The notes beneath the pieces were generated by a model that searched no databases, was not told where the DNA came from, and saw only the letters and a list, made by a program, of their open reading frames with translations. Below, one piece after another: positions 430 through 50,143 of a stretch of 64,000 bases of DNA. The DNA comes from Thiomicrorhabdus sp. Kp2 (lineage in GTDB: Bacteria; Pseudomonadota; Gammaproteobacteria; Thiomicrospirales; Thiomicrospiraceae): contig NZ_ARWI01000001.1 in the NCBI RefSeq assembly GCF_000478585.1, positions 2,480,001 to 2,544,000 of the forward strand, written 5' to 3'. How positions within the stretch are numbered: position 1 is the first letter of the stretch; each line of letters starts with the position of its first letter. The position numbers and the translations under genes are program-made.

Positions 430-467
430 AAAAGCCCATTTTACCAGGCCTGGTAAAATGGGCTTTT
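430..467. terminator. Bidirectional terminator built on the 12-bp palindrome
   Basis: A perfect 38-nt palindrome lies between two convergent genes. Its centre is the 12-mer ACCAGGCCTGGT (443-454). The outer arms are AAAAGCCCATTTT and its complement, which supply a U-run for either strand. It is the longest palindromic version of the iterated repeat in this window and looks like a terminator for both flanking genes. Confidence 0.85.
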
Positions 468-474
468 TGCTAGA

Positions 475-1365
475 TTAATAAGCTTGAACACCAAATTTTA
501 AAAGTAATTTTGGAAGATGGTCATCCAAGTTTTGAACTTCATGGTCTTTCAGTTCAATTAAATTAAAACCGTACTTTTTATAGATTTCTATTTTTTTCTG
601 TTTTCTTTCTAAATATTTTGGTTGCTCTTCAAGCCCCCAATATTCAATGTAGACCTTTCCAGCGGGGATGTAAAAATCAGAATAGACATCTTCTTCTATG
701 GGGAGCTTGCGTTCATAGGCATGAACTATTTCAGCCATATAGAGCCAATTATCTATAAGCATTTCGGCTTTTGAACGCACCATGTGGCCATCAGTTGTTC
801 TGTGAGTCGCTTTAAATTTATCTCTGAATTCTTTTTTGGTTTCTTCTAGTGAACTAGGTTCTTTGTTATTACCCTTTAGTTGCTCAATAGTTTCTTTTAG
901 TGATTTATTATCAAGAATGCTTTGCGGCCAACGCACATAGGGAATACCTGAACGATAGTCCTCCGATTGTATCGCTTTCAATTTAAGACCTTGAGCCGTT
1001 GCTTGCCATCCTTTTAGGGCTTTTTTAATCCAGCCAAGCTCAGAGAGAATTTGATTGGTTTTATTAGCCGAAATTTGAAAGTGTTGACCAATTGTTTTAG
1101 ATGTTAATTGTGAATCTTGCGGGGATGTTGTTTCTTGTGCCTGTGCTGTTAAGCTTGAAAGATTTTCAGGCCAAACAATGTATTGACCAAATCGTTTGCT
1201 TTCTTGGTAACGGCCTCCTTGAGAAATACCTAAATCAGTCAATTCCCAGGAGTCATTAGACTTCTGTATCCATTGAGCTTTTTCAAGCAGGTTAAAAAGC
1301 TCTTTACTGCTTATATTTTCTTTTTTACTTAATGCAGAAGTAGAAAGATAGGCCACGGTAGTCAT
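475..1365 (-). CDS. Hypothetical protein with C-terminal PD-(D/E)XK-like nuclease domain
   Basis: A 296-residue protein not recognised as a named family. The first ~150 residues contain two repeats that look like small winged-helix modules, each beginning near a short strand and ending in a GRYQES or YRSGIPYVRWP segment. The C-terminal ~110 residues resemble a restriction-endonuclease fold: SKAE (E201) in a helix, D230 in YSDFYIP, then E241 in a hydrophobic strand (VYIEYWG), followed by a Lys-rich helix and a LIEL strand. The usual E-x-K lysine is replaced by Trp, so activity would depend on a nearby Lys. DNA binding or repair is plausible; function is unknown. It converges on ppnP and is transcribed alone. 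Confidence 0.6.
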   Translation of the reverse strand: MTTVAYLSTSALSKKENISSKELFNLLEKAQWIQKSNDSWELTDLGISQGGRYQESKRFGQYIVWPENLSSLTAQAQETTSPQDSQLTSKTIGQHFQISANKTNQILSELGWIKKALKGWQATAQGLKLKAIQSEDYRSGIPYVRWPQSILDNKSLKETIEQLKGNNKEPSSLEETKKEFRDKFKATHRTTDGHMVRSKAEMLIDNWLYMAEIVHAYERKLPIEEDVYSDFYIPAGKVYIEYWGLEEQPKYLERKQKKIEIYKKYGFNLIELKDHEVQNLDDHLPKLLLKFGVQAY

Positions 1366-1447
1366 TGCACACCTTTGTTTTATGTAAAAATCCTTATTCT
1401 ATAAGTTTTTACAATAGTAGTCATGCTTTGAGAGGGGTTAAATTATT

Positions 1448-1588
1448 TTAATTTTGTTTCTGTTGTTGATTTTTTTTATTTTTTTGATATTTAAAAAGAA
1501 AATGCAAACCAAAATGTATCAAAATTAAGAATACAAAAAATCCTATCGCAATTTCGCCAATGTAGTGAATCCACATAATGTTTCCCAT
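1448..1588 (-). CDS. Possible small single-span membrane protein (46 aa)
   Basis: A 46-codon open frame begins with ATG (1588) and ends TAA (1448). It encodes MGNIMWIHYIGEIAIG followed by a strongly hydrophobic stretch (about residues 13-32, rich in F, I and L) and a basic, Gln-rich tail (KYQKNKKNQQQKQN). This is the arrangement expected of a single transmembrane helix with a positive cytosolic tail. No strong Shine-Dalgarno is visible. It fills the otherwise empty 324-nt gap and is divergent from the SulP gene. It could be a chance frame in AT-rich DNA. Confidence 0.4.
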   Translation of the reverse strand: MGNIMWIHYIGEIAIGFFVFLILIHFGLHFLFKYQKNKKNQQQKQN

Positions 1589-1652
1589 ATCTGTTTTAAC
1601 GATTAAGTTCGCCAACTAAGGCTTTGAATATCCGACAATTGTACTGTGTTTT

Positions 1653-1661
1653 TGTTAGAAT
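1653..1661 (+). promoter_or_regulatory. Extended -10 promoter candidate for the SulP gene
   Basis: TGTTAGAAT matches an extended -10 (TGn plus TAGAAT, five of six consensus bases) 28 nt upstream of the SulP start codon. The -35 region around 1632-1638 is poor (CGACAA), as is common with extended -10 promoters. A GGAG Shine-Dalgarno follows at 1681. Confidence 0.45.
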
Positions 1662-1689
1662 TTGCACACATTAAATTTTAGGAGTTTTT

Positions 1690-3276
1690 ATGAGTCATCC
1701 AAGCCAGCCATTTCATTGGCAAACCTATAAAAATGACACCCTATCAGGCATTACTGTAGCGCTTGCATTAGTACCTGAAGCGGTGGCTTTTGCTTTTGTA
1801 GCGGGCGTTCACCCGCTAGTTGGTCTTTATGCCGCTATTATTGTGGGCATGATTACGGCTGTATTTGGTGGTCGTCCTGGGATGATTACGGCAGCAGCGG
1901 GTTCTCTTGCCGTGGTAATGATGCACCTGGTAATGGAACATGGTGCGTCCTTTTTGTTCTTAGCGGTGATTATGATGGGTCTCTTTCAAATATTCATAGG
2001 GCTTATGAAATGGGGGCGGTTTATTCGAATGGTGCCCAGCTCGGTTATGCTCGGGTTTGTAAATGGCCTAGCCTTAATTATTTTAATCGCCCAGTTTACA
2101 CAGTTTAAAGACTCCTCTGGCGCTTGGCTAACGGGTGATAGTCTAAATATCATGTTGATGATTATTGCGGCGACTTTAGCGATTATCTATCTACTTCCTA
2201 AGATTACTAAAGCGGTGCCATCGGCTTTAGCAGCCATAGTATTAGTCTCATTAGCGGTGATTTTCTTTGATATTAATGCGATTACGGTTGGCGATAAAGC
2301 ATCGGTTTCAGGGACATTAGAATCATTGATTTATGGCGATGGCGTTGAGGGTGGTTTTCAAGGTTTAAGCTGGTTTACCACGTTACCTGAAGGCTTTTGG
2401 TCTTTAGAAACGCTATGGATTGTTTTACCCTATGCGGTGATTTTAACGATTATCGGTTCGGTTGAATCTTTATTAACAATGACATTGATTGATGACATTA
2501 CTGAAACTCGCGGTAAAGCCAATAAAGAGTGTATCGCTTTAGGTGCGGCAAACTGTACAGCAGGTTCGTTTGGTACGATGGGCGGGTGTGCTTTGATTGG
2601 TCAATCCATGATTAACGTGAATTCTGGTGGAACAGGACGTTGGTCTGGTATTTCTGCCGCATTGGGTTTATTAGTGATTGTGTTAGTCGCATCGTCTTGG
2701 ATTGAGATGGTGCCAATTGGCGCGCTTGTTGGTTTGATGTTCTTTGTGGTGATTGCTACCTTTAACTGGGCGAGCTGGAATATTATGCGTGGCATGACTA
2801 AGGCGGATGCGTTTGTGATGGTGATGGTAACGGTATTAACCGTGATGTTTGATTTAGCCGTAGCCGTTATTGCAGGTATCATTGTGGCGGCTTTAGTGTT
2901 TGCTTGGGAGCATGCTCAGCGTATTATGTTGCAAGAAACGACTGAAGAGATTAATGGTAAGTTGGTTAAAACTTATAAAGTTCAAGGGCCATTGTTCTTT
3001 GCATCGGCACAAAATTTTACCGATATGTTTGACCCTAAAAATGACCCTGATTGTGTAAGAATCGATTTTATGCACTCAAGAGTGTATGACCATACAGGGA
3101 TTGAAGCGATTAATGGATTAACTAAAAAGTATTTAGCAGCAGGTAAGACGTTAACACTTCAGCATCTAAGTCCTGAATGTCAGGTTTTATTAGATGATGC
3201 CAAAGAGTTGATTGAGGTGAATGTGTCTGAAGATCCTCATTACCATGTATCAACAAGTGGTAAGCCACAGAGTTAA
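1690..3276 (+). CDS. SulP/SLC26-family inorganic anion transporter
   Basis: A 528-residue inner-membrane protein with about 10-14 hydrophobic segments across residues 15-415 and a C-terminal STAS domain (about 430-520). The N-terminal SulP signature is clear: DTLSGITVALALVPEAVAFA followed by GLYAAIIVG. SulP proteins move sulfate, bicarbonate or other anions, usually with Na+ or H+. In marine sulfur-oxidising autotrophs some homologues take part in dissolved inorganic carbon uptake. The substrate cannot be read from sequence, so bicarbonate is only a context-based suggestion. The gene is monocistronic, with its own promoter candidate and a strong terminator. Confidence 0.88.
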   Translation: MSHPSQPFHWQTYKNDTLSGITVALALVPEAVAFAFVAGVHPLVGLYAAIIVGMITAVFGGRPGMITAAAGSLAVVMMHLVMEHGASFLFLAVIMMGLFQIFIGLMKWGRFIRMVPSSVMLGFVNGLALIILIAQFTQFKDSSGAWLTGDSLNIMLMIIAATLAIIYLLPKITKAVPSALAAIVLVSLAVIFFDINAITVGDKASVSGTLESLIYGDGVEGGFQGLSWFTTLPEGFWSLETLWIVLPYAVILTIIGSVESLLTMTLIDDITETRGKANKECIALGAANCTAGSFGTMGGCALIGQSMINVNSGGTGRWSGISAALGLLVIVLVASSWIEMVPIGALVGLMFFVVIATFNWASWNIMRGMTKADAFVMVMVTVLTVMFDLAVAVIAGIIVAALVFAWEHAQRIMLQETTEEINGKLVKTYKVQGPLFFASAQNFTDMFDPKNDPDCVRIDFMHSRVYDHTGIEAINGLTKKYLAAGKTLTLQHLSPECQVLLDDAKELIEVNVSEDPHYHVSTSGKPQS

Positions 3277-3301
3277 TCTTTGTATTCTTAATATATAATT
3301 T

Positions 3302-3326
3302 AAAGCACCTAAGGGTGCTTTTTTTT
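3302..3326 (+). terminator. Rho-independent terminator after SulP gene
   Basis: Stem AAAGCACC (3302-3309) pairs with GGTGCTTT (3314-3321) around a 4-nt loop and runs into eight T residues. It lies 25 nt after the stop codon. Confidence 0.9.
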
Positions 3327-3487
3327 GGTTCTTGAAGGTTGGTTTTATATTGGGATTTGGGCTTTTAAAAAAAACTTATTGGTATTTATTAGGGTTTAAT
3401 GAGAAGATTAAAAGGCTGTTTTTAAGCTTTGTAGCCAATTAACTGAATTAGTTTTGGGTGTAAAAAAATCATTTAGGTGTTTAGTTC

Positions 3488-5236
3488 GTGCGAAATAGAA
3501 AAAAACTTATCCAGTTAATCGCTTTTGTTCCTGTTCTTGTTATTCCAGCTATCGTTTTCTTTGTTGGTACTTTAATTGTGAGTGTAGAAAAAGATCTCTA
3601 TGAACGTTCATACTCACAAATTGAACAAGATTTTTTAGAAACAGAAAAGTCTCGTATCCAATCTAAAGTCAAAAATATGGTTGATTTAGTCAGTTATCAA
3701 CAATCTATTATTAATCAAAAACTGCATAATAGAATCCAACGTAGGGTTGATGATGCCTATCGTATTGGCATTACCTTATACGATCACTATGTGGATAAGT
3801 TGCCAGAAGCTGAACTAAAAGAACTCATTACTGAGGCTTTACGACCTTTAGTATGGAATGGGGGGGAAAGTTTTATTTGGATTTTGGATTTTAATGGAAA
3901 TTTTCAACTCGCTCCAAGTTACCTTAAACACCTAGAAGGTAGCTCAATTATTGATTTTGAGGATGCAACTGGCCGTAAGGTAATTCGTGAAGAGATTGCA
4001 ATTACCAAAACTCAAGGTCACGGTTTTCTTTGGGATACTTTTACTAAACCAGGTGAGTCGATTGATCAACAGTTCAAGCAGCTAGCCTATGTGAAAAAAT
4101 TTGGTATTTATGATTGGTATTTAGGCTCTGCTGAATATCTGGATACGGCAACCAAAAACACCAATACCTATTTGCTTGAGGCAATTAATCAAGTAGGAAA
4201 AGGAGAAACGGATTACTTTTTTGTAGTGGACGCTGAAGGCAGGTTGCTCTTAAATTATGCAAGGCCAGACATTGTTGGAAAAAATGTCACGAAAGCGGAT
4301 AATTTGGAGTTAAAAGAGCTGTACAAAAAAATACTTAAAACTACTCAAAATGAAGAGGGTGGTTTTCTCTCTTATGAGTGGCTTAACCCCAGAACTGGGC
4401 TGCGTGATAATAAGCTTACTTTTGTGAAAATGGTGCCCCAAAGTGGTTGGGTAATTGGGAGCGGTTTTTACCCTAAGTCTTTAGAAAATAATTACACGGT
4501 TCAAGAGCAACGATTAACAAACCAGTATGAACAAAAAATACGTCATTTAAATAAATTAACGGGTTTAACGGTTTTAGTGGCTCTACTGATTTCAGGTTTT
4601 ATATCGTTACTTTTCTATCGAGTTCTCTCTCAATACCAGCAAGATTTAGTTGAAGCAAATAATGAATTAAAAGATTTAAATATTGAACTGGAAAATAAGG
4701 TTTTGGCTAGAACGAAAGAGTTAGGCAAAGCCAATCATGAGTTAGAAAATTTAGCGACGACCGATAGCTTGACACAGATTGCGAATCGTTATGGGTTAAT
4801 GAAACGACTTGATGGTGAGATTAATCGATCACAGCGTTTTAATGAGACATTTTCTGTCGTTATGCTGGATGTTGATTTCTTTAAAAAAGTGAATGATCAG
4901 TATGGGCATGATGTAGGGGATTATGTGCTACAAGAGCTATCATTACTCATCAGTGAAGAACTTAGGGTGGTCGATTTATTTGGTCGTTTTGGGGGAGAAG
5001 AGTTTTTGGTTATTATGCCGAGCACGTTACTAGATGAAGCCTTTAATAGTGCGGAAAGAATTAGAAAAAAAATAGAGAAATATGATTTCAAACATAAGGG
5101 AAAAATCACCATTAGCCTAGGGGTTGCTCAATATAGTACTAACCAAAAAGTGCATGATTTAATTAAAAATGTGGATGTTGCTTTGTATCAAGCTAAGAAT
5201 TTAGGTAGGAATCAAACGTGCAAAGTCTTAAATTAG
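3488..5236 (+). CDS. Membrane diguanylate cyclase with Cache-type sensor
   Basis: A 582-residue protein with a GTG start. TM1 spans about residues 7-31, a periplasmic double-Cache-like sensor about 35-340 (two GW/FIWILD...LGSAEY-type PAS-like halves), TM2 about 355-378, a short coiled coil follows, then a GGDEF domain about 421-580. The active site is GGEEF (502-506). An upstream RVVD (493-496) lies exactly five residues before it and fits the inhibitory I-site RxxD. It should make c-di-GMP from two GTP in response to an extracytoplasmic small molecule. The next gene, 50 nt downstream on the same strand, is a c-di-GMP receptor candidate, so the two probably form one signalling unit. Confidence 0.9.
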   Translation: MRNRKKLIQLIAFVPVLVIPAIVFFVGTLIVSVEKDLYERSYSQIEQDFLETEKSRIQSKVKNMVDLVSYQQSIINQKLHNRIQRRVDDAYRIGITLYDHYVDKLPEAELKELITEALRPLVWNGGESFIWILDFNGNFQLAPSYLKHLEGSSIIDFEDATGRKVIREEIAITKTQGHGFLWDTFTKPGESIDQQFKQLAYVKKFGIYDWYLGSAEYLDTATKNTNTYLLEAINQVGKGETDYFFVVDAEGRLLLNYARPDIVGKNVTKADNLELKELYKKILKTTQNEEGGFLSYEWLNPRTGLRDNKLTFVKMVPQSGWVIGSGFYPKSLENNYTVQEQRLTNQYEQKIRHLNKLTGLTVLVALLISGFISLLFYRVLSQYQQDLVEANNELKDLNIELENKVLARTKELGKANHELENLATTDSLTQIANRYGLMKRLDGEINRSQRFNETFSVVMLDVDFFKKVNDQYGHDVGDYVLQELSLLISEELRVVDLFGRFGGEEFLVIMPSTLLDEAFNSAERIRKKIEKYDFKHKGKITISLGVAQYSTNQKVHDLIKNVDVALYQAKNLGRNQTCKVLN

Positions 5237-5286
5237 TAGTGGCGACTTTTTATTTTGTGGCTTTTCATTTTCGTTAGGACAAAACA

Positions 5287-6201
5287 GTGAGTAGTGATAA
5301 ACGATCATTTTTTCGATTTGATGTTACCTTGCCATATTATCTTGAAGCTATGAATGAAGACGGGATTTGTTTTCATATTAACCGAGCTACATTCATACAG
5401 CAAGGCGATGAGAAGCAAATTCAATCCATTAAGACCTCTATAGATTTTCTCTTTCAAGATAAGCAGCATATTCAAAATGGTGGTGTGCAAATATTTAGAG
5501 GACTGAACGATAAAATTGAGTTTATGGCTTGGTTGTTAGACGCTATTTTATTAGGACGCAATGTTTTATCTACGGATGAGTTTCATGAACGTTTAAATGT
5601 AAATAAACGTTTTACTCTCCCCGAATCTAAAGGTTCATCAAAAGTTTTACCTTTACTGCAAGCCCTTTCAAAACGGCTCGATCACTATATCGATGAGCTT
5701 GTGAGTGTTATGCAGAATAGTTTGCGAAATAAGGTCTTTTTTTATCACAAAAAACCATTAGAACTATTTAATATTCTGAGTTACTTAAAAGGGCTAGAGG
5801 ACCTGGCAAAGAAACGGAATTGGTTGGCTATGGTGATAACCTCATTGGTCTCACTATTGAATGTTTATGAAGCGCGTCTTGTTAGAGTCAAAACGGCTTA
5901 TCAGTCGATTTCTGATACAGAAAACTGGGATGAAGAAAGTGTTAATTTAGGTGCAGGAGGGTTTGCAATTTATAGTGCAGAGCCATTTGCAATCAACCAA
6001 AAATTCTGTGCGTTGTTTAAAGTGGATAACGAGTTTGTTTTTGGTCAGGCAAGTTGTGTAAATGTAAGTCAAGAGGCCTGTTTTAATGGTAAACACCGAG
6101 TGGCGTTTAAGTTTGAAGACATTACGGCAGAAGACAGTGCGCATATTGTTCGCTACCTTATGACAAAAGAGCTTGAATTTCATCAAATGCAACCAAAATG
6201 A
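5287..6201 (+). CDS. PilZ-type c-di-GMP receptor candidate with split domain
   Basis: A 304-residue protein with a GTG start. The N-terminus carries a PilZ-like RxxxR motif (R6-SFF-R10) leading into a beta strand. The second PilZ motif, normally (D/N)xSxxG about 25 residues later, appears only at N220 as NLGAGG, with Ser replaced by Gly, followed by the usual beta-barrel remainder up to about residue 290. Between them lies a ~170-residue mostly helical insertion. Some tetramer-forming PilZ proteins carry helical insertions, so this may be of that type. Its position right after a diguanylate cyclase supports a c-di-GMP role. Binding is uncertain because the second motif is degenerate. Confidence 0.65.
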   Translation: MSSDKRSFFRFDVTLPYYLEAMNEDGICFHINRATFIQQGDEKQIQSIKTSIDFLFQDKQHIQNGGVQIFRGLNDKIEFMAWLLDAILLGRNVLSTDEFHERLNVNKRFTLPESKGSSKVLPLLQALSKRLDHYIDELVSVMQNSLRNKVFFYHKKPLELFNILSYLKGLEDLAKKRNWLAMVITSLVSLLNVYEARLVRVKTAYQSISDTENWDEESVNLGAGGFAIYSAEPFAINQKFCALFKVDNEFVFGQASCVNVSQEACFNGKHRVAFKFEDITAEDSAHIVRYLMTKELEFHQMQPK

Positions 6202-6711: not shown

Positions 6712-6723
6712 ACCAGGCCTGGT
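6712..6723. repeat. Iterated palindrome ACCAGGCCTGGT (intergenic copy)
   Basis: A perfect 12-mer between the BFD-like gene and the HAD gene. The flanks are only weakly complementary (CTC/AAT), so it is a short hairpin rather than a long one. One of 12 perfect copies in the window. Confidence 0.9.
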
Positions 6724-7697: not shown

Positions 7698-7719
7698 AAG
7701 TTACCAGGCCTGGTAACTT
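7698..7719. repeat. Iterated palindrome in a 22-bp perfect inverted repeat
   Basis: AAGTTACCAGG and its complement form a perfect 22-bp palindrome centred on the 12-mer (7703-7714). It lies between the convergent HAD gene and the metal-transporter operon, where a bidirectional terminator would be expected, but there is no T-run on either side. Confidence 0.9.
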
Positions 7720-12020: not shown

Positions 12021-12048
12021 ATTAACTTACCAGGCCTGGTAAGTTAAT
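12021..12048. repeat. Iterated palindrome in a 28-bp perfect inverted repeat
   Basis: ATTAACTTACCAGG and its exact complement form a 28-bp palindrome centred on the 12-mer (12029-12040). It lies downstream of rlmD and upstream of the metal-importer operon. No U-run follows on the minus strand, so terminator function is possible but not obvious. Confidence 0.9.
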
Positions 12049-13444: not shown

Positions 13445-13470
13445 TTAAGTTACCAGGCCTGGTAACTTAA
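13445..13470. repeat. Iterated palindrome in a 26-bp perfect inverted repeat
   Basis: TTAAGTTACCAGG and its complement form a 26-bp palindrome centred on the 12-mer (13453-13464), 10 nt beyond the queE stop codon on the minus strand. The position fits a 3'-end structure for queE. Confidence 0.9.
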
Positions 13471-16329: not shown

Positions 16330-16341
16330 ACCAGGCCTGGT
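16330..16341. repeat. Iterated palindrome between leuD and leuB
   Basis: A perfect 12-mer 3 nt after the leuD stop. The flanks (AATCT/GATT) extend the pairing imperfectly. Inside a transcription unit this hairpin could modulate leuD/leuB mRNA stability or partial termination. Confidence 0.9.
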
Positions 16342-24500: not shown

Positions 24501-25799
24501 ATGATAACGCCAAATAACCAGTCAACACTCTCTCAGTGGATAGACTGGTTACTGCATCTTCATGCAGATGAAATTGATTTAGGGCTAGAGCGTATACGTT
24601 TAGTGGCTAATCAGATGCAAGTTACCAGGCCTGCTCCTTTTGTGATTACCGTTGCGGGTACAAATGGCAAGGGTTCAAGTGTGGCGATGTTGTCTGCCAT
24701 CTTAATAGAAGCGGGTTATCGGATTGGTACCTATACTTCCCCACATATATTAGCGTTCAATGAACGCATCCAAATCAATGGTAAACCAGTTAATGACCAG
24801 TTAATTATTGAGGCATTTGATTCAATTGAGAATCAGCGAAAAACGACTAAGTTAACTTATTTTGAATTTTCGACTCTTTCGGCATTAAGTATCTTTAAGC
24901 AATCTGAATTAGATGTCGTTGTATTAGAAGTGGGACTAGGTGGGCGTTTAGATGCAGTTAATATTGTGGATGCGGATGCGAGCTTAATTACGGCTATTGA
25001 TGTCGATCATATTGATTGGTTAGGGGATGATAGAAATCTGATTGCGTTAGAGAAAGCGGGGGTGATGCGCAAAGAGCAAATCTCCGTTTGTTCTGATTCA
25101 AATCCTCCCGCGAGCTTATTAGACTTTGCGGAGCATTTGCAAGTTGATTTCTCGGTTCTCGGTAAGGATTTTATTTACACGTCAGCGCCAATAAACAACC
25201 AGGCCTGGTTGTTTCAAAGCCTGCGAGGAGAGCCAGAGTCCATAACAATAGCCAAGCCTTCATTACAAGGAGCGTTTCAGCTTCAGAATGCATCAGGGGT
25301 TGTTGCTTTAATTTTAAAGATTAAATCAAAACTTCCTGTTAAGGTTGAGGCCATTAATCAGGGGTTGCTTAAGGTTAAGCATCCAGGCCGATTAGAACGC
25401 TTGCAATTGAATCACCAGGCCTGGTTAATTGATGTGGCCCATAATCCTCAATCGGCAGAGGTGCTTGCTGAATACTTAGCTACCCAAGATCTGTGTTCTT
25501 CTGATCGGGTTGCTGTATTTTCAGCTTTACGTGATAAAGATATGTTACCAATGGTTAAAGTGATTGCGCCTTGGGTAAAGAAGTGGGTTATTGCGGACTT
25601 GGCGATCCCTAGATCAACTGATGTGGGAGCCTTGAAACAAACTTTGTTGAACGCTGGTGTGGATAAAGATGATGTTTACGAGTATGAGTCGATTAATGTA
25701 GCGGTTCAAGCTGTTAAAGAATTGAAAAATAAACATGTACTCGTTTGGGGGTCTTTTTTTACGGTAGCCCAAGCCTTAACATCAATTAATAGCCAGTGA
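24501..25799 (+). CDS. folC: Bifunctional folylpolyglutamate/dihydrofolate synthase FolC
   Basis: A 432-residue Mur-ligase-family enzyme that adds glutamate to dihydropteroate and folates. The ATP loop is TVAGTNGKGSSVAML; EVGLGGRLDAVN and DVDHIDWLG follow; the C-terminal domain begins near HPGRLERLQ. Two perfect copies of the 12-bp palindrome lie in this gene and encode NNQAWLF and NHQAWLI; a third, imperfect copy near 24623 encodes VTRPAP. dedD follows 27 nt downstream. Confidence 0.94.
   Translation: MITPNNQSTLSQWIDWLLHLHADEIDLGLERIRLVANQMQVTRPAPFVITVAGTNGKGSSVAMLSAILIEAGYRIGTYTSPHILAFNERIQINGKPVNDQLIIEAFDSIENQRKTTKLTYFEFSTLSALSIFKQSELDVVVLEVGLGGRLDAVNIVDADASLITAIDVDHIDWLGDDRNLIALEKAGVMRKEQISVCSDSNPPASLLDFAEHLQVDFSVLGKDFIYTSAPINNQAWLFQSLRGEPESITIAKPSLQGAFQLQNASGVVALILKIKSKLPVKVEAINQGLLKVKHPGRLERLQLNHQAWLIDVAHNPQSAEVLAEYLATQDLCSSDRVAVFSALRDKDMLPMVKVIAPWVKKWVIADLAIPRSTDVGALKQTLLNAGVDKDDVYEYESINVAVQAVKELKNKHVLVWGSFFTVAQALTSINSQ
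25193..25214. repeat. Iterated palindrome inside folC, 22-bp perfect
   Basis: AAACAACCAGG and its complement form a perfect 22-bp palindrome inside folC; the 12-mer is at 25198-25209, read as NQAWL codons. Confidence 0.9.
25414..25425. repeat. Iterated palindrome inside folC, second copy
   Basis: A perfect 12-mer encoding HQAW in the C-terminal part of folC. It is the second perfect copy within about 220 bp. Confidence 0.9.
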
Positions 25800-27996: not shown

Positions 27997-29175
27997 ATGA
28001 ATGAATTTGATATTGAAACCTTAGCGATCAGAACAGGTTATCAGCAGACCGCTGAACAGGAGAATAGTGAGGCTATTTTCCCGACTTCTAGCTTTCGTTA
28101 TAAATCGGCAGCGCAAGCTGCTGCGAGGTTTAGTGGTGAAGAGAAGGGAAATGTTTACTCTCGTTTTACTAATCCAACCGTAAGAGCTTTTGAAAACCGT
28201 TTGGCAGCTATGGAAGGCGGTGAGGCTTGTGTTGGTACAGCATCTGGTATGTCTGCTATCTTATCGACTTTTATGGGATTGCTAAAATCTGGCGACCATA
28301 TCGTTTCATCTCAAAGTATTTTTGGTACAACCAAAGTGCTATTCACAAAATATTTAGCTAAGTTTGGGGTTGAGGTAAGTTTTGTATCTCAAACAGAGCT
28401 AGCAGAATGGAAGGTCGCTGTTCAGCCTAATACCAAAGCTCTGTTTTTAGAAACACCTTCAAATCCATTAACGGAAGTAGCGGATTTAGGCGCATTAAGC
28501 GTGCTGGCTAAGAAAAATGATTGTTTGTTGATTGTGGATAATTGCTTCTGCACACCTGTACTACAAAAACCGCTAGAGCAGGGTGCAGATATTGTCATTC
28601 ACTCCGCCACCAAGTTTATTGATGGACAAGGTCGTGGTATTGGCGGGGCTGTGGTTGGGAGTGAAGATTTAATTGAAGAGCATGTCCGTGGTTTTATGCG
28701 TACCGCTGGTCCAACGATGAGTCCTTTCAATGCTTGGGTATTTTTAAAAGGGTTGGAAACTCTACCAGTAAGAATGAAAGCGCATTGCGAAAATGCTGAA
28801 CAGTTGGCAATTTGGCTAGCAGAACATCCAGCCGTCGAACAAGTTTATTATCCAGGATTAGAGTCGCATCCACAATTTGCGCTAGCAAACAAACAGCAAA
28901 AGGCGGGTGGAGGCCTGGTCAGTTTTAAAGTTAAGGGTTCACAGGCTGAGGCTTGGAAGGTAATTGATAGTACTGAAATGTTGTCAATAACTGCTAATTT
29001 AGGTGATGTAAAAACCAGTATTACACATCCAGCCACTACAACACATAGTCGAATTGAACCAGAAGCAAGATTAAAAGCAGGGATTACCGATAATCTAATC
29101 CGTATCTCGGTTGGGTTGGAGTCGATTGAGGATATAAAGAAAGATTTGCAAAAAGGATTGTTGCACTTAGTTTGA
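27997..29175 (+). CDS. metZ: O-succinylhomoserine sulfhydrylase MetZ
   Basis: A 392-residue Cys/Met-metabolism PLP enzyme. The PLP-lysine segment is IHSATKFIDGQGR, with NPLTEVADL and VDNCFCTPVLQKPLEQGAD upstream. It makes homocysteine directly from O-succinylhomoserine and sulfide. The purF-metZ arrangement is typical of Pseudomonas-like gammaproteobacteria. Cystathionine gamma-synthase is the paralogous alternative, but the synteny and GRFSGE-type N-terminus favour MetZ. Confidence 0.88.
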   Translation: MNEFDIETLAIRTGYQQTAEQENSEAIFPTSSFRYKSAAQAAARFSGEEKGNVYSRFTNPTVRAFENRLAAMEGGEACVGTASGMSAILSTFMGLLKSGDHIVSSQSIFGTTKVLFTKYLAKFGVEVSFVSQTELAEWKVAVQPNTKALFLETPSNPLTEVADLGALSVLAKKNDCLLIVDNCFCTPVLQKPLEQGADIVIHSATKFIDGQGRGIGGAVVGSEDLIEEHVRGFMRTAGPTMSPFNAWVFLKGLETLPVRMKAHCENAEQLAIWLAEHPAVEQVYYPGLESHPQFALANKQQKAGGGLVSFKVKGSQAEAWKVIDSTEMLSITANLGDVKTSITHPATTTHSRIEPEARLKAGITDNLIRISVGLESIEDIKKDLQKGLLHLV

Positions 29176-32387: not shown

Positions 32388-33224
32388 ATGTTTGATTTGC
32401 ATGATGAGATATTAAAAGTAAATGTTACCAGGCCTGGTATGCCTCTTGTAATGGGGATATTGAATGTGACTCCTGATTCATTTTCGGATGGTGGGAATTA
32501 CGTTAATCAGCAAATTATCGAGTCTAGAGTTCTGCAGATGATTGAAGAAGGTGTTGATATTATTGATATTGGCGGCGAATCTACCAGGCCTGGTGCTGAA
32601 AAAGTCTCTTTAGAGGTTGAACTGCAAAGAGTTATTCCTGTTATTGAGTGGATTAAATCACGTTTTGAGATACCTATTTCCATAGATACTTATAAAACTG
32701 AAGTAATGGCTGAGGCTATTTCAAGAGGTGTTGACATTGTTAATGATGTTAATGCTTTACAGTCAGAAGGCGCTATGCAAATCGTAGCTGAGTCAGATGT
32801 TACCGTCTGTATTATGCATAAAAAAGGTTGCCCAGAAGATATGCAAAATGCGCCTGAATATGGTGATGTTGTTATTGAGGTTCGAGATTTTTTACTGGAT
32901 CGCGCACAAGCGTGTGAGGCGGCTGGTATTTCAAAAAATAAAATTATCATCGATCCAGGGTTTGGCTTTGGTAAGACTTTGGCGCATAATACGCAGCTGT
33001 TTAATGAACTGTCAGATTTTATTGAGCTTGATTATCCTCTGTTGGTTGGAGTATCTCGTAAGAGGATGATTGGCGAGATGCTAGATAATGCTCCTGTAGA
33101 GAAGCGTTTACATGGTAGTGTTGCTGCCGCTGTACTCGCTGGAATGAAAGGGGCTAGTGTGGTGAGAGTGCATGACGTTGCCTCTACTGTTGAGTCTCTT
33201 AAGGTGATTTCACAGTTAGTTTGA
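32388..33224 (+). CDS. folP: Dihydropteroate synthase FolP
   Basis: A 278-residue TIM barrel that joins p-aminobenzoate and dihydropterin pyrophosphate, the sulfonamide target. GILNVTPDSFSDGG and GGESTRPGA are present, plus DPGFGFGKT near the pterin site and SRKRMIG for phosphate binding. Two perfect copies of the iterated palindrome lie in the gene; the second encodes the STRPG of the conserved loop. glmM follows. Confidence 0.96.
   Translation: MFDLHDEILKVNVTRPGMPLVMGILNVTPDSFSDGGNYVNQQIIESRVLQMIEEGVDIIDIGGESTRPGAEKVSLEVELQRVIPVIEWIKSRFEIPISIDTYKTEVMAEAISRGVDIVNDVNALQSEGAMQIVAESDVTVCIMHKKGCPEDMQNAPEYGDVVIEVRDFLLDRAQACEAAGISKNKIIIDPGFGFGKTLAHNTQLFNELSDFIELDYPLLVGVSRKRMIGEMLDNAPVEKRLHGSVAAAVLAGMKGASVVRVHDVASTVESLKVISQLV
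32427..32438. repeat. Iterated palindrome inside folP, first copy
   Basis: A perfect 12-mer near the folP 5' end, encoding TRPG (V-T-R-P-G-M), outside the conserved core. Confidence 0.9.
32583..32594. repeat. Iterated palindrome inside folP, second copy
   Basis: A perfect 12-mer encoding TRPG within the conserved GGESTRPGA substrate loop of dihydropteroate synthase. Confidence 0.9.
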
Positions 33225-40509: not shown

Positions 40510-42618
40510 ATGGTAAAAGTTGAAATAAACGGACAAGTTATTGAAGCACATGAAGGGGACATGCTAATTGATGTCGCTGATGATGCTCAAATTGCCATTC
40601 CCCGTTTTTGTTACCACAAGAAATTGTCTATTGCGGCTAACTGTCGTATGTGTCTTGTAGAGGTTGAGGGGGCATGGAAGCCGCTTCCTGCGTGTGCTAC
40701 TCCTGTAACAGATGGTATGAAAGTTCATACTAAATCAGCAAAAGCGATTGCAGCTCAGAAGTCTGTTATGGAATTTTTGTTAATTAACCATCCATTGGAT
40801 TGTCCTATTTGCGACCAAGGTGGTGAATGCGAACTGCAAGATGTAGCAATGGATTATGGTGATGATGTTTCTCGTTACTCAGAAGCTAAACGTGTTGTAA
40901 GCGATCGTGAAGCAGGTTCATTGATTAAAACAGATATGACGCGTTGTATCCACTGTACGCGTTGCGTTCGTTTTGGCCAGGAAGTAGCTGGAATGATGGA
41001 ACTTGGTGCAACGGGTCGAAGTGAGTGGATGGAAATTGGTACCTACATTGAGAAATCAATCACTTCAGAAATGTCGGGCAACATGATTGATTTATGCCCA
41101 GTAGGTGCTTTGACATCTAAGCCTTTCCGCTATACAGCTCGTTCTTGGGAGTTAAAGGCTCATAAAGCCATTGCTGCTCACGATAGTATCGGTTCGCACA
41201 TTACTGTTCATACCAAGGGCAACGATGTTAAACGTGTTGTTCCTCGTGAAAATGAAGCGATTAATGAAGTTTGGATTTCAGATAGAGACCGTTTTTCATA
41301 CGAGGGTGTGAATTGTGAATCTCGCTTAACTCAGCCTATGATCAAACAAAATGGCGAGTGGAAAGCCACCGATTGGGAAACGGCTTTAGAATTTGCCGTT
41401 TCAGGTCTTCAAAACGTTTTGACAAACAGTCAAGATATTGGCGTTTTAGCTTCTGCTAACTCAACTCTTGAAGAACTTCATTTATTACAAAAAATGGCAC
41501 GTGGTTTAGGTATTAATAATATCGACTATAGACATCGTCAAGTTGACTTTAAATCAGACTCTGTTGGTTTTAATGCACCATCACTAGAGCACAGTTTGAA
41601 TGAAGTAGAAAAGCTAAAAACTGTCTTGTTAGTAGGGTCTTACCTTCGTAAAGAATTGCCAATTCTTAACCACAGAATTCGTAAAGCTGTTCAGGCTGGT
41701 GCACAGGCATTAGTGATTAATCCTGCTCAATATGACTTTAACTATAAGGTTACAGAAGTTACTTCTGATTCTGGAATGGTGTTCACACTTGCAGGTATTG
41801 CTAAAGCCGCTTGTGAGATTAAAGGAATTGACCAGGCCTGGTTAAACACGGTTTCTGCTAACGAAGAGCAAAAGCAAGTTGCTCAGTCTCTAATTGATAC
41901 TGAAAATGCCTCTATTATGCTAGGGCAATTAGCGCAAAATCATGCAGATTACACTGTAATTCAGAAGCTTACAGCCATTATTTCAGAAGCAACTGGAGCG
42001 AAGTTAAACGTTCTTCCGTTATCTGCTAATGAAGTAGGAGCACATTTAGTTGGCTTTTTACCACTTGTGGGTAAAAACAGTGCACAAATGATTTCTGGAG
42101 GCATGCAAGCATTTATTAATATGAATATTGAACCTGAAGCTGATTTTACAAATGGCGATGCCGCTTTAACAGCTATGCAAAATGCTAATTTTGTTGTGAA
42201 CTTAACGGCCTTTGATAGTGAAAATCAGCGTTCTTACGCAGATGTAATGTTACCAATAGCAACATTTACTGAAACTGCAGGAACTTTTGTTAACGCTAAC
42301 GGTACAAAACAATCTTTCAAAATGACGGTTGAACCGAAAGGTGATGCTAAGGCTGCTTGGAAAATTCTTCGTGTATTAGGCAATATGTTTGATGTTGATG
42401 GATTTGATTACATACATTCAAATGAAGTGTTGAGTGAAGTATTGGATAATGTTGCCTCAAAAATCAACTTTACAGAATTAGCTTGTGAATTACCGCAAAG
42501 TAATAATGACGGTGACGTACGAATGGTTTCTCCATATCAGATAGATGCGATTGTTCGTCGTTCACCATCGCTTCAGGCAACCCCTGATGCAAACGTTGAA
42601 ACAATGGGAAGAGGGTAA
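40510..42618 (+). CDS. nuoG: NADH-quinone oxidoreductase subunit G
   Basis: A 702-residue 75-kDa-type subunit. The N-terminal [2Fe-2S] ferredoxin segment has RFCYHKKLSIAANCRMCLVEV-type cysteines, followed by CPICDQGGECELQD and CIHCTRCVRFGQE clusters, then a molybdopterin-oxidoreductase-like domain without cofactor. It is shorter than the ~908-residue E. coli NuoG and matches the mitochondrial-type length. A copy of the iterated palindrome encodes DQAW at 41831. Confidence 0.96.
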   Translation: MVKVEINGQVIEAHEGDMLIDVADDAQIAIPRFCYHKKLSIAANCRMCLVEVEGAWKPLPACATPVTDGMKVHTKSAKAIAAQKSVMEFLLINHPLDCPICDQGGECELQDVAMDYGDDVSRYSEAKRVVSDREAGSLIKTDMTRCIHCTRCVRFGQEVAGMMELGATGRSEWMEIGTYIEKSITSEMSGNMIDLCPVGALTSKPFRYTARSWELKAHKAIAAHDSIGSHITVHTKGNDVKRVVPRENEAINEVWISDRDRFSYEGVNCESRLTQPMIKQNGEWKATDWETALEFAVSGLQNVLTNSQDIGVLASANSTLEELHLLQKMARGLGINNIDYRHRQVDFKSDSVGFNAPSLEHSLNEVEKLKTVLLVGSYLRKELPILNHRIRKAVQAGAQALVINPAQYDFNYKVTEVTSDSGMVFTLAGIAKAACEIKGIDQAWLNTVSANEEQKQVAQSLIDTENASIMLGQLAQNHADYTVIQKLTAIISEATGAKLNVLPLSANEVGAHLVGFLPLVGKNSAQMISGGMQAFINMNIEPEADFTNGDAALTAMQNANFVVNLTAFDSENQRSYADVMLPIATFTETAGTFVNANGTKQSFKMTVEPKGDAKAAWKILRVLGNMFDVDGFDYIHSNEVLSEVLDNVASKINFTELACELPQSNNDGDVRMVSPYQIDAIVRRSPSLQATPDANVETMGRG
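41831..41842. repeat. Iterated palindrome inside nuoG
   Basis: A perfect 12-mer in nuoG, read as D/Q-A-W codons in the variable middle of the subunit. Confidence 0.9.
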
Positions 42619-42622
42619 ATAG

Positions 42623-45148: not shown

Positions 45149-45154
45149 TTGTTG

Positions 45155-47128
45155 ATGTTGCATACAATTCTTACTGTTATTTTAGTTGCTCCTTTAGTTG
45201 GTTCTATTATCGCTGGTTTGTTTGGTAGACAAGTAGGCCGTAAAGGTGCACATTATTCAACAATTGCGGGTGTGGCTATTTCTACAGTTTTAGCTGCTTA
45301 TGTATTTGTAGAGTTCGTTCTTAATGGAGCTGAGGCTTACAATGCCAGTTTATATACATGGTTAGTGAGTGATGGCATCAAGTTTGAACTTGGTTTCATG
45401 ATTGATGAACTTTCAGCCACGATGATGTTGGTGGTGACGTTCGTATCTTTAATGGTTCACATCTATACCATCGGTTATATGGACCATGATGAAGATTACG
45501 GGCACGATAACCCTTACTATCAGCGTTTCTTCAGTTATATCTCTTTATTCACGTTCTCAATGCTTTCATTGGTTATGGCGAATAACTTCCTGCAGTTATT
45601 CTTCGGTTGGGAAGCTGTAGGTTTAGTCTCGTACCTATTGATTGGTTTCTACATGAAACGTGAGTCTGCGATTCAAGCAAACCTAAAAGCATTTTTGGTT
45701 AACCGTGTAGGTGATTTTGGATTTATCCTAGGTATCGCTGTGGTATTCGTGTATTTCAATACTATGGATTACAAAGAGTTCTTTGCTCAGCTTTCAACTC
45801 AAAAAGATGTGATGATAGAAATCATTCCAGGTGTGGAATGGTCAATGATTACTTTAATGCTTATTTTATTGTTCATTGGTGCAATGGGTAAATCTGCACA
45901 GATGCCTTTACATGTTTGGTTACCAGAATCCATGGAAGGTCCTACGCCAATTTCTGCATTAATTCACGCAGCGACAATGGTAACAGCGGGTATCTTTATG
46001 GTGGCTCGTCTTTCACCTGCATTTGAATTGTCTGAAGCCGCGTTGAGTTTTGTCTTGGTTATTGGTGCTTTAACGGCATTTATGATGGGGCTTCTTGGGC
46101 TTATTCAGAACGATATTAAGCGTGTTGTCGCTTACTCTACACTTTCACAGCTTGGTTATATGACTGCTGCTATGGGTGCTTCAGCTTATGCGGCAGGTAT
46201 GTTCCATGTATTAACGCATGCATTCTTTAAAGCATTATTGTTCTTAGCGGCAGGTTCGGTCATTATTGCCATGCATCACATTCAAGACATCCGTCAAATG
46301 GGTGGTATGCGTAAGTACATGCCAATCACCTATGCCGCCATGTTAATTGGTTCATTGGCATTAATTGGTTTCCCTGGATTCTCTGGGTTCTTCTCTAAAG
46401 ACTCAATTTTATTGTCATTAGATGCTTCTGAACGTTTTGGATCAACTTTCTCCTATGTTCTGTTAATGATGGGTGTGTTTATCACAGCATTCTATAGCTT
46501 CCGCATGTTCTTCTTGGTTTTCCATGGAGAAGAGAGTGATTACGTTAAAACACACGAGATTAAAGAGTCTCCATGGGTGGTAACGGTTCCATTAATTCTT
46601 TTATCAATCCCTGCTGTCGTAATGGGTATTCCAATGATAGAAGGTATGTTGAATGGTCAGTATTTTGGTCAGTCAATTTTCATCCTACCGGAGAATGATG
46701 TAATGATGTCTCTATTCAATACCTTCTACCACGGTGTGTTGGATATGATTGTGCACTCATTTATGACATTACCAGTATTCCTTGCTCTATCGGGTGTATT
46801 CTTAGCTTGGTTGCTGTATATCAAAATGCCAACTATTCCTGGTAAGTTAAAAAATATGTGTCCTCGTGGATACTACATGTTGGATAACGCTTATGGCTTC
46901 GATCGTTTAAATGAAATCATTTTTGTTGAAGGTGGTCAGAAATTAGGTAAATTCTTTACCCGTTCGATTGATGTTAAATTGATTGATACTGGTATGGTAA
47001 CAAACACCTTTATGACCGTTGCTAACTCAGCTGCTGCATTACGTCAGTCTCAGACTGGGTTTATGTATCACTACGCGTTTGTAATGATTTTTGGTCTGCT
47101 AGCAATGCTAGTTTGGACTCTGTGGTAA
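45155..47128 (+). CDS. nuoL: NADH-quinone oxidoreductase subunit L
   Basis: A 657-residue antiporter-like subunit with about 16 helices, including the long lateral helix at the C-terminus. The ATG at 45155 has GAAGGGG upstream; two in-frame TTG codons just before it are not needed. LPESMEGPTPISALIHAATMV and YSTLSQLGYM are family marks. Confidence 0.96.
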   Translation: MLHTILTVILVAPLVGSIIAGLFGRQVGRKGAHYSTIAGVAISTVLAAYVFVEFVLNGAEAYNASLYTWLVSDGIKFELGFMIDELSATMMLVVTFVSLMVHIYTIGYMDHDEDYGHDNPYYQRFFSYISLFTFSMLSLVMANNFLQLFFGWEAVGLVSYLLIGFYMKRESAIQANLKAFLVNRVGDFGFILGIAVVFVYFNTMDYKEFFAQLSTQKDVMIEIIPGVEWSMITLMLILLFIGAMGKSAQMPLHVWLPESMEGPTPISALIHAATMVTAGIFMVARLSPAFELSEAALSFVLVIGALTAFMMGLLGLIQNDIKRVVAYSTLSQLGYMTAAMGASAYAAGMFHVLTHAFFKALLFLAAGSVIIAMHHIQDIRQMGGMRKYMPITYAAMLIGSLALIGFPGFSGFFSKDSILLSLDASERFGSTFSYVLLMMGVFITAFYSFRMFFLVFHGEESDYVKTHEIKESPWVVTVPLILLSIPAVVMGIPMIEGMLNGQYFGQSIFILPENDVMMSLFNTFYHGVLDMIVHSFMTLPVFLALSGVFLAWLLYIKMPTIPGKLKNMCPRGYYMLDNAYGFDRLNEIIFVEGGQKLGKFFTRSIDVKLIDTGMVTNTFMTVANSAAALRQSQTGFMYHYAFVMIFGLLAMLVWTLW

Positions 47129-47159
47129 TTAAAAGAATAAGAAGAAGGGAATAGACTAC

Positions 47160-48674
47160 ATGCTATCAAGCTATCCTATTTTAAGCACACTAGTGTGGCT
47201 ACCAATTATTGGTGGTTTACTAGTATTATTTGCTGGTCGTAATAACGATACAGTTGCAAAGTGGTTATCACTTGCTACGGCGGGCTTAACTTTTATTCTT
47301 TCGCTTCCTTTGTGGTTCAACTTTGATACCACTACGGCTGCTATGCAGTTCGAAGAGAAGGTTGAATGGATTCCAATGTTCAATATCTACTACCACTTGG
47401 CAGTAGATGGACTATCAATGCCTTTAGTCTTACTAACAACGTTTACACAAGTGTTAGTCATTGCTTCGGCATGGGATGTTATTAAAGAACGTGTTGAACA
47501 GTACATGGGTGCCTTCCTTATCATGGGCGGTATCATGGTTGGTGTTTTCGTCGCTTTAGATTCAATCCTTTTCTATATTTTCTGGGAAGCTCTTTTGATC
47601 CCAATGTTTATCGTAATCGGTAAATGGGGTGGGCCTCGTCGTGTTTATGCAACAATGAAGTTCTTCTTATATACCTTCTTCGGTTCGGTATTTATGTTGA
47701 TTTCATTTATCTACATGTATTACCAATCAGGTAGCTTTAGTATTTTAGACTTCCAAACAATGCAGTTAGGTATGACTGTCCAGATTCTTATCTTCTTGGC
47801 GTTCTTAATTGCATTTGCAGTCAAGATTCCAATGTTCCCAGTACACACTTGGTTGCCTGATGCTCACGTTGAAGCACCAACAGCGGGATCTGTTGTACTA
47901 GCGGCAATCATGCTTAAGATGGGGGGCTATGGTTTTGTTCGTTTCAGTTTGCCAATCACTCCAGATGCATCCATGACATTAGATTGGTTAATCATCATCC
48001 TATCTCTCATCGCAATCGTGTATATCGGTGTGGTCGCGATGGTGCAAAGTGATATGAAGAAACTGGTTGCTTACTCTTCAATCTCACACATGGGGTTTGT
48101 TACTCTAGGTATGTTCTTGGTGTATGACATTATGCAAAACACTGGAAGCATTCAAGGGGCGCAAATTGGTATGGAAGGTGCCATGGTTCAGATGATCTCT
48201 CACGGATTTATCTCGGGTGCTATGTTCTTAGCCATTGGTGTGTTATATGACCGTATGCATACGCGTGAAATTTCAGCCTATGGTGGTGTTGTGAATAAAA
48301 TGCCATGGTTTGTGTTCTTTGCAGTCCTATTTGCTATGGCCAACGTAGGTTTACCTGGAACTTCAGGGTTTGTAGGTGAATTTATGGTGATCATCAGCTC
48401 GTTCAAAGCTAACCTTTGGTACGGAACTTTAGCGGCATTAACCTTAGTCATCGGTGCGGCCTATACCTTATGGATGGTTAAGCGCGTATTCTTTGGTGCT
48501 GTCACAAATGAAAATGTCGAACAATTGTCCGATTTAAATAAACGTGAATTTGCCATAATGGCAATTCTAGCAGTAGCGGTTGTTGGCTTGGGTGTCTATC
48601 CTGCGCCTATTATGGAAGTGATGCACGCTTCTGTTGAGAACTTATTAGTTCAAGCAACAACGTCTAAACTTTAA
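47160..48674 (+). CDS. nuoM: NADH-quinone oxidoreductase subunit M
   Basis: A 504-residue antiporter-like proton-pumping subunit with about 14 helices. WEALLIPMFIVIGKWGG, LPDAHVEAPTAGSVVLA and VAYSSISHMGFV are typical. The conserved Glu/Lys pump residues lie in these segments. Confidence 0.96.
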   Translation: MLSSYPILSTLVWLPIIGGLLVLFAGRNNDTVAKWLSLATAGLTFILSLPLWFNFDTTTAAMQFEEKVEWIPMFNIYYHLAVDGLSMPLVLLTTFTQVLVIASAWDVIKERVEQYMGAFLIMGGIMVGVFVALDSILFYIFWEALLIPMFIVIGKWGGPRRVYATMKFFLYTFFGSVFMLISFIYMYYQSGSFSILDFQTMQLGMTVQILIFLAFLIAFAVKIPMFPVHTWLPDAHVEAPTAGSVVLAAIMLKMGGYGFVRFSLPITPDASMTLDWLIIILSLIAIVYIGVVAMVQSDMKKLVAYSSISHMGFVTLGMFLVYDIMQNTGSIQGAQIGMEGAMVQMISHGFISGAMFLAIGVLYDRMHTREISAYGGVVNKMPWFVFFAVLFAMANVGLPGTSGFVGEFMVIISSFKANLWYGTLAALTLVIGAAYTLWMVKRVFFGAVTNENVEQLSDLNKREFAIMAILAVAVVGLGVYPAPIMEVMHASVENLLVQATTSKL

Positions 48675-48697
48675 TCGGATATAGGTGAATTAATTAT

Positions 48698-50143
48698 ATG
48701 AATTTTGTTATTCCATCATTTGCACCAGCTATCCCAGAAATGGTGCTTTTAGGTCTCATTTCTTTTATTTTGGTAGCAGATACCTTTTGGTCAAAACGTT
48801 ACCAATTTGCAACGTACTATGCGACTCAAATCTCTTTAGTTGTCGTAGGGTATTTTATTCTTACAAGTTTTGCTACAACACAAGTTATTACTTTTGATGG
48901 TAGTTTTGTACGTGATAGCTTTGCTGATGTACTCAAACTATTCACCATTTTAGTGAGTTTAGGTATTTTCCTTTTCTCTCGAGAATACCTGTTACAGCAT
49001 AAATTCTTCACTGGAGAGTTCTTTATTTTAGGACTGTTTGGTGTTTTAGGTATGTTTGTAATGATCTCAGCTCATAACATGATTACCATGTTTATTGGTT
49101 TAGAGATTATGTCTTTAGCCATGTATGCCATGATTGCCCTTAGAAAAGATCACGGTCAAGGCCTAGAAGCAGCAATCAAATACTTTGTACTTGGTGCTTT
49201 AGCCACTGGTATGCTGTTATACGGGTTCTCAATGATTTATGGTGCAACGGGGTCAATTACATTCCCAGAAATGGCTAAAGTGATTGCCGAAGGTAATGTT
49301 GATAAAGTTGTACTATCATTTGGTGTGGTATTTGTAGTAATCGGTTTAGCCTTCAAGCTAGGGGCTGTGCCATTCCATATGTGGATGCCAGATGTCTATC
49401 AAGGCTCGCCTTCAGCTGTAACTTTATATTTAGGTACAGCACCTAAAATCGCTGGTTTTGCTATGCTTTATCGCTTACTTGAAGAAGCTTTACCAGGCCT
49501 GGTAGAAGACTGGCAGTCTCTGATTATCATGATATCTGTTCTATCAATGGTCGTAGGCTCACTAATTGCAATCGTTCAGGATAACTTAAAACGTATGCTT
49601 GCCTATTCAGGTATCGGTCATGTTGGTTTTATGTTGTTAGGTGTTATTGCAGCAACTCCAGAAGGTTATTCTGCAGCAATGTTCTATGTAATTGTTTATG
49701 CGATTACAGGTGTAGCTGGTTTCGGTATGATTGTCGCATTATCTAAGACTGGAAATGAATTTGATAAGATTTCTGATTTTATCGGTTTAAATGCACGTAA
49801 TCCGTGGTTAGCATTTATGATGTTGATTGTCCTATTCTCTATGGCTGGTATTCCTCCATTTATTGGATTCTGGGCAAAAATCATCGTTATAGAAGAAGTA
49901 ATCAAAGCAGGTTTTGTATGGATAGCAGTAGTCGGTGTTATCATGGCTGTAATCAGTGCCTTCTACTACTTGAAAGTGGTTAAAGCGATGTACTTTGACA
50001 AACCAGAAGATCAATCCAATATTGAAACAACCAGCTCAGGTTCAAATTGGGCCGTAAGTTTCTTTGCGCTTTCTTTATTAGTACTAGGTTTAGTACCGAG
50101 TTCTTTGATTGACTTGTGTTACAACAGTTTAAAAGTACTTTAA
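48698..50143 (+). CDS. nuoN: NADH-quinone oxidoreductase subunit N
   Basis: A 481-residue antiporter-like subunit that ends the complex I operon. GLEIMSLAMYAMIAL, MWMPDVYQGSPSAVTLYLGT and LAYSGIGHVGFM are present. A copy of the iterated palindrome encodes LPGLVE at 49492. A strong terminator follows the stop by about 18 nt. Confidence 0.96.
   Translation: MNFVIPSFAPAIPEMVLLGLISFILVADTFWSKRYQFATYYATQISLVVVGYFILTSFATTQVITFDGSFVRDSFADVLKLFTILVSLGIFLFSREYLLQHKFFTGEFFILGLFGVLGMFVMISAHNMITMFIGLEIMSLAMYAMIALRKDHGQGLEAAIKYFVLGALATGMLLYGFSMIYGATGSITFPEMAKVIAEGNVDKVVLSFGVVFVVIGLAFKLGAVPFHMWMPDVYQGSPSAVTLYLGTAPKIAGFAMLYRLLEEALPGLVEDWQSLIIMISVLSMVVGSLIAIVQDNLKRMLAYSGIGHVGFMLLGVIAATPEGYSAAMFYVIVYAITGVAGFGMIVALSKTGNEFDKISDFIGLNARNPWLAFMMLIVLFSMAGIPPFIGFWAKIIVIEEVIKAGFVWIAVVGVIMAVISAFYYLKVVKAMYFDKPEDQSNIETTSSGSNWAVSFFALSLLVLGLVPSSLIDLCYNSLKVL
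49492..49503. repeat. Iterated palindrome inside nuoN
   Basis: A perfect 12-mer encoding P-G-L in nuoN. The last copy on the left of the prophage. Confidence 0.9.

Follow-up and report, generated by a model that had tools for sequence, protein, structure and literature searches.

A highly iterated palindrome and its dialects in Thiomicrorhabdus and related genera: a possible DNA-uptake-signal-like system

Genome self-tagging for DNA uptake is described for the Neisseriaceae and Pasteurellaceae only, at least in the text of PMC3630211 consulted here. Frye et al. distinguish eight dialects of the DNA uptake sequence (DUS) that share a CTG core, and inverted pairs are present in every harboring genome (PMC3630211). 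For Neisseria and the Pasteurellaceae, Kingsford et al. report extended motifs that start with adenines, +- pairs that are co-opted as terminators, and an enrichment between tail-to-tail genes, and seven table rows of the same paper give 927-1965 DUS or uptake signal sequences (USS) per genome (PMC1852404). ComN/PpdA has been proposed as the USS receptor (PMC12616744). Highly iterated palindrome 1 (HIP1) and the alternate HIPs of cyanobacteria are also short GC-rich palindromes spread genome-wide, with other words in some relatives (PMC4390886). Here we describe a comparable element, the 12-mer ACCAGGCCTGGT with its core CAGGCCTG, which was noticed in 64,000 nucleotides (the window, positions 2,480,001-2,544,000) of the sulfur-oxidizing bacterium Thiomicrorhabdus sp. 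Kp2, whose genome is a single contig of 2,725,706 bp. With somewhat better than even confidence, and judging from sequence features, we read this palindrome as the local dialect of a DNA-uptake-signal-like system in the Thiomicrorhabdus, Hydrogenovibrio, and Thiomicrospira family.

Twelve exact copies of the 12-mer, a perfect palindrome, are present in the window, as the original prediction had stated; 11 of its coordinates agree with ours and one was a single base off (13452, not 13453). Chance was expected to yield far less than one copy, and no copy appeared across 100 dinucleotide shuffles of the window. Genome-wide, we counted 557 copies of the 12-mer and 1133 of the core, while either pattern read backwards as a control gave 0. 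The core is thus an octameric palindrome iterated throughout the 2.73-Mb genome at approximately one copy per 2.4 kb, and the description of the element as highly iterated is borne out. Finer statistics were taken from 864 kb (the window together with 40 stretches of 20 kb each, about one third of the genome). In this sample, CAGGCCTG occurs 336 times, CCAGGCCTGG 245 times, and the full 12-mer 185 times against the 0.11 predicted by a third-order Markov model, so the signal is not an artefact of the window. The number of cores lies within the range of 927-1965 given for USS and DUS, and the number of 12-mers lies below it (PMC1852404).

Conservation extends beyond the 12-mer. The core is centered in a 22-bp dyad, AAnTTACCAGGCCTGGTAAnTT, whose flanks outside the 12-mer read outward on both sides as A, A or G, any base, T, and T (89 copies). 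Copies within genes (n = 83) keep these flanks, with A or G at +2 in 0.90, T at +4 in 0.58, and T at +5 in 0.57 of the cases, and the flanks are therefore not solely a by-product of a terminator stem. A protein-binding motif had been suggested, and an element whose flanks are kept over 22 bp even inside genes does look like a protein-recognition site; its palindromic form points to a reader that is itself symmetric (dimeric). The core itself is nearly all-or-none, as mismatches in the 12-mer context were found at 7 sites in the core versus 86 at the two outer positions.

Positions relative to genes were assessed with our own gene calls rather than an annotation (791 genes, 87% coding, in the 864 kb). 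Of the 185 sampled 12-mers, 99 are intergenic and 83 intragenic, and the other three lie at an edge (1) or at the end of a stretch (2). Convergent gaps have the highest density (1.76 copies per kb), ahead of tandem gaps (0.96), divergent gaps (0.41), and genes (0.11); copies prefer gene 3' ends, though intragenic ones exist too, and the latter are mostly translated as PGLV, QAW, or TRPG. Density varies among the 40 stretches of equal size with borderline significance (p 0.06). The sole stretch without any CAGGCCTG is a defence island at 1,224,001-1,244,000 that contains Wadjet JetABCD, a fused type II methyltransferase-endonuclease gene, and a PDC-S28-like helicase.

The closest named relatives of the window's NuoG belong mainly to Thiomicrorhabdus, followed by Hydrogenovibrio and Thiomicrospira. 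Among 55 family genomes that are at least 85% complete, 29 carry 409-1173 copies of CAGGCCTG and 26 carry 4-74, with none in between (reversed control 0-36), which is a clean split between core-rich and core-poor genomes. The 12-mer count spans 0 to 718 across the 32 genomes of the genus, and the base adjacent to the core varies with lineage among motif-rich relatives (G, C, or T). CAGGCCTG was the top 8-base palindrome in nine of ten motif-rich relatives sampled at 33-62 kb each; the exception, G001, has a local repeat that ranks higher. In a set of 369 genomes taken evenly from the class, none outside the family had more than 5 copies of the 12-mer. In four congeners (G010, G011, G030, and G031), samples of 140 kb per genome yielded no iterated word: the best -log10 p was about 7, as opposed to 85 and 93 in equally large positive controls. 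The function of the motif therefore looks dispensable. A fifth genome, G022, had no motif in 40 kb. These five are the sampled members of the 20 genomes without a known motif, and some of the other 15 may have unseen dialects.

Six of the 26 core-poor genomes have another, related iterated word. ACAGGCCGGGT occurs 503 times in T. cannonii (G003) and 293 times in G016, 9 times in G033, and at most 6 times in the others; ACCGGCCGGT occurs 1025 times in G007 and at most 15 times in the others; and TCTRCCAGGYTGGG occurs 296, 304, and 352 times in G037, G038, and G043, respectively, and at most once in the others. No dialect word is abundant outside its own genomes. Every dialect contains CAGG or GGCC as a core, neither being common in full to all four words, and A/T sits at a similar distance outside the core across dialects. 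Two of the three alternative words, found in five of the six genomes with other dialects, are asymmetric. They have an A-tract on the 5' side, and copies paired head to head make hairpins, a pattern close to that described for the uptake sequences of Neisseria and of the Pasteurellaceae, Haemophilus among them (PMC1852404, PMC3630211). The T. cannonii word, in its extended form AAAACTCAACAGGCCGGGTA, is balanced in orientation (253/250), and all seven of its close pairs (<60 bp; 61 sites in 240 kb) are head-to-head hairpins, five of which have a T tail on the shown strand. The Hydrogenovibrio words, extended from few copies, read AAAATCT(A/G)CCAGG(T/C)TGGG; orientation is somewhat uneven in G037, G038, and G043 (129/167, 135/169, and 164/188), and close pairs of this dialect also occur in G037 and G043. 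The nine T. cannonii-dialect copies in G033, which belongs to another genus, include one head-to-head pair at contig C69:206-241 and may represent transferred DNA, contamination, or chance.

The dialects can be followed at a single site. At the position of the window copy 41831..41842, which lies within nuoG and encodes DQAWLN, our genome and Milos-T2 have GACCAGGCCTGGTT, zzn3 has GAACAGGCCTGGTT, chilensis has GAGCAGGCCTGGTT, and T. cannonii has CAACAGGCCGGGTT; T. arctica has the one-off GACCAGACCTGGTT, and several word-less species have unrelated residues. The NuoG site therefore switches dialect in place across species. Sites were compared more widely by matching protein positions in genes where both genomes have a site, in preference to ortholog tables, which lump together species pairs that are not independent and take no account of gene length. 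In pairs of motif-rich species, 39 of 74 intragenic sites (21 genes) lie at the same protein position, with 1.85 expected. Against the T. cannonii dialect, 10 of 31 sites are co-located (0.7 expected), in 5 genes and with many of the rows contributed by NuoG and its neighbour. On a NuoG tree of 28 rows, with motif labels taken from 22-kb loci, the loci with at least two cores belong to Thiomicrospira, Hydrogenovibrio, or Thiomicrorhabdus. The T. cannonii dialect, common to its sister row, nests beside CAGGCCTG species. This three-genus spread and nesting point to the palindrome as the presumably ancestral form.

From the sites, their positions and pairing, the dialects, and the switch in place, we infer an uptake step, a receptor, and a drive that might act as follows. 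Hundreds of copies would label the chromosome as 'self'. During natural transformation, uptake of kin DNA would be favored through binding of the 22-bp site by a receptor, probably a type IV (minor) pilin, and fragments bearing a site would replace site-less alleles, whereby sites would spread. They would persist where they do least harm, at gene 3' ends and in tolerant codons, and lineages that shifted their word would come to hold separate dialects. Such a recombination-spread 'self' word fits the least-harm positions, the dialects, the hairpin pairs, the absence from the defence island, and the apparent dispensability of the motif. ComEC, the one competence gene searched in the family panel, is present in 52 of the 55 genomes, and a DNA-uptake route thus exists.

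Similarity to the DUS of the Neisseriaceae lies in the hundreds to thousands of copies, in dialects that share an inner core, in intergenic inverted pairs at terminators, and in intragenic copies (PMC3630211). Unlike DUS, the element has another sequence, its commonest form is palindromic with a two-sided extension, and core one-offs are not enriched; DUS also have a receptor, ComP, and the receptor and uptake step proposed here are putative. With the USS of the Pasteurellaceae (AAGTGCGGT, ACAAGCGGT), the element shares a core accompanied by A/T tracts and +- pairs as terminators (PMC1852404). USS differ from it in being asymmetric with long A/T tracts on the 3' side, and in their unrelated sequence and family. 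ACCGGCCGGT, which lacks one base pair in each half of ACCAGGCCTGGT, parallels an indel-type USS variant conjectured for H. ducreyi (PMC1852404, PMC12616744). We are evenly divided on the wider claim that this would be a third independent uptake language beyond those of the Pasteurellaceae and Neisseriaceae, with a probably ancestral palindrome, a symmetric receptor, a change to asymmetric dialects within one family of sulfur oxidizers that took place at least once in situ, and an apparent absence from some lineages that keep ComEC. No report of the motif was found among the matches listed in the openly licensed PubMed Central (PMC) literature, an absence that is no proof, and none of the papers searched there pairs 'uptake sequence' with 'Thiomicrospira'.

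Several observations weigh against the uptake reading. Known uptake sequences are not palindromes according to PMC1939737, which reports a graded excess of near-miss sites as one of their properties. Variants one base off the core are in no excess in the sample of our genome (412 observed versus 459 expected). The same count bears on the original prediction of active gain and decay, which fits the alignment of the NuoG site but finds no counterpart in the one-off variants. ComEC is equally common without a known motif (18 of 20 genomes, compared with 34 of 35 with one) and is therefore non-discriminating. A receptor search in our own genome returned 17 prepilin-like matches, 15 of them above the cut-off and none tied to the motif, and no candidate receptor was singled out. 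One prepilin cluster is presumably a type II secretion set, and locus L245 (1818001-1836000), with several prepilins, is from its gene order presumably an MSHA-type pilus cluster. Uptake sequences are reportedly biased to genome-maintenance genes, a finding attributed to Davidsen in 2004. Here, comEC (L034:8415-10787) has 3 cores, and two neighbouring genes at L048:9081-15574, AddA/RecB-like and AddB-like, have 5 and 3, which places them near the top of all genes sampled; this excess in recombination genes is anecdotal. Site positions shared with G007, the genome of the ACCGGCCGGT dialect, amount to 0 of 11, and the palindrome label on the NuoG tree requires 7 changes, a value equally low in 32 of 500 shuffles, so clustering is only moderate.

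Of the other explanations, the one that survives best is an intracellular sequence-specific protein (nucleoid-associated, or serving replication, repair, or self-marking) that binds the dyad, with selection retaining the sites; we regard it as rather unlikely. Palindromes suit dimeric DNA-binding proteins, and the symmetric 22-bp contact pattern, present in intragenic copies too, would be expected of such a protein, as would the strict 8-bp core without an excess of one-off variants. The distribution along the chromosome speaks against it. Sites of the matS, KOPS, SBS, and NBS type show an origin or terminus domain or a replichore bias. For our motif, unlike these, density does not depend noticeably on how far a stretch lies from the GC-skew switch near 1.54 Mb (Spearman 0.09, p 0.57 for the core, and 0.24, p 0.13 for the 12-mer, in 41 stretches). 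An enrichment at the origin or terminus was apparent in the first 20 stretches and was gone once 20 more stretches and GC skew were added. Inter-site distances fit random placement (coefficient of variation 0.95; simulated 1.00, standard deviation 0.05), and even spacing was rejected. Some members of the genus also have no motif, and the chromosome-organisation role that had been proposed thus finds no support. The four congeners without an iterated word, the asymmetric A-tract dialects with their hairpin pairs, and the sparseness of sites in divergent (promoter) gaps likewise tell against an intracellular reader.

A HIP1-like origin, in which an orphan methyltransferase reads the palindrome or its GGCC centre and a cycle of repair and mutation multiplies the sites, appears very improbable. 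The likeness to HIP1 that had been proposed holds insofar as the element is a short, highly iterated palindrome, and the concentration of deviations at the outer positions also resembles the HIP1 pattern (PMC4390886). In the same source, however, HIP words track methyltransferases, whereas our motif does not track either of the two families searched. No match to PF00145 or PF01555 (E up to 0.001) was found in 12 of the 29 palindrome-rich genomes and 3 of the 6 other-dialect genomes, and PF00145 was found in several motif-poor genomes, so the 5-methylcytosine (m5C) and N6/N4 methyltransferase families were both rejected as drivers. In addition, conserved flanks that reach 22 bp and asymmetric versions in relatives are unlike HIP1.

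Repetitive extragenic palindromic (REP) sequences and bacterial interspersed mosaic elements (BIME) are extragenic, lie at gene 3' ends, and form hairpins. Intergenic sites were read from the upstream gene, with convergent sites counted twice, which gave 116 placements. That our sites are merely transcription terminators or an extragenic repeat of this type is scarcely credible: the enrichment at gene 3' ends and in convergent gaps and the 23 placements with a stem extension of at least 3 bp and a T-rich tail speak for it, but 70 placements have a stem extension below 3 bp and approximately 45% of the sampled copies (83 of 185) lie inside genes, mostly as PGLV, QAW, or TRPG and with conserved flanks, in line with the earlier view that this is not a simple terminator.

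If the DNA-uptake reading is true, an independent replicate would become available in one more family, which has several dialects as well as sister species that appear to lack the motif. The origin, switching, and loss of uptake tags could be tested there, and comparative genomics could search for the receptor by presence/absence and co-variation. The receptor of a palindromic tag would also be expected to have a different geometry. Should uptake be refuted, what remains is a genome-wide recognition system with dialects that still awaits an explanation.

Within the window, 6 of the 12 12-mers are intergenic and 6 are in genes, and all five core-only copies are in genes by our own calls. The first 12-mer (443..454) forms the mid-point of a long inverted repeat with convergent genes on either side and is terminator-like. 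It is followed by intergenic copies between tandem genes (6712..6723), between convergent genes with flanks AAGTT..AACTT (7703..7714), and with flanks AACTT..AAGTT (12029..12040) and AAGTT..AACTT (13452..13463), and by a copy 3 bp past the end of an aconitase-C-domain gene (16330..16341). A single Mur-ligase-domain gene holds the 12-mers at 25198..25209 and 25414..25425 as well as a core at 24626..24633 that keeps 11 of the 12 positions, and a pterin-binding-enzyme (folP-like) gene holds those at 32427..32438 and 32583..32594, the latter read in frame as TRPG. Beyond the nuoG copy described above, the last 12-mer (49492..49503) lies within the open reading frame 48698-50143, which we take to be nuoN from its operon position. 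Of four sites that had been listed as partial copies, those at 24626 and 51524 (51524..51531) proved to be intact cores with altered flanks, and at 28911 and 44366 the first base of the core is gone (GAGGCCTGG and TAGGCCTGG). Three further cores, at 51022..51029, 58361..58368, and 61565..61572, were not in the earlier list; these and the core at 51524 lie in genes and have altered flanks.

Viral cargo was rejected as a source of the motif: the 14-mer TACCAGGCCTGGTA is present in 36 stretches of viral contigs but at a single place in each, and viral contigs rich in copies were thus not encountered. Other repeated words were encountered in the same material. Dense local repeats occur in G001 (L132-L133) and in G031 and G038 (together L152-L155), including CCCGCGGG, found 37 times in 40 kb of G001, and repeats of about 18 copies in G038; these are perhaps CRISPR arrays. 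Finally, TGGTGGTG, which we take from its look to be Chi-like, is in excess in the 864-kb sample, with 111 copies on both strands versus approximately 15 expected from base composition.

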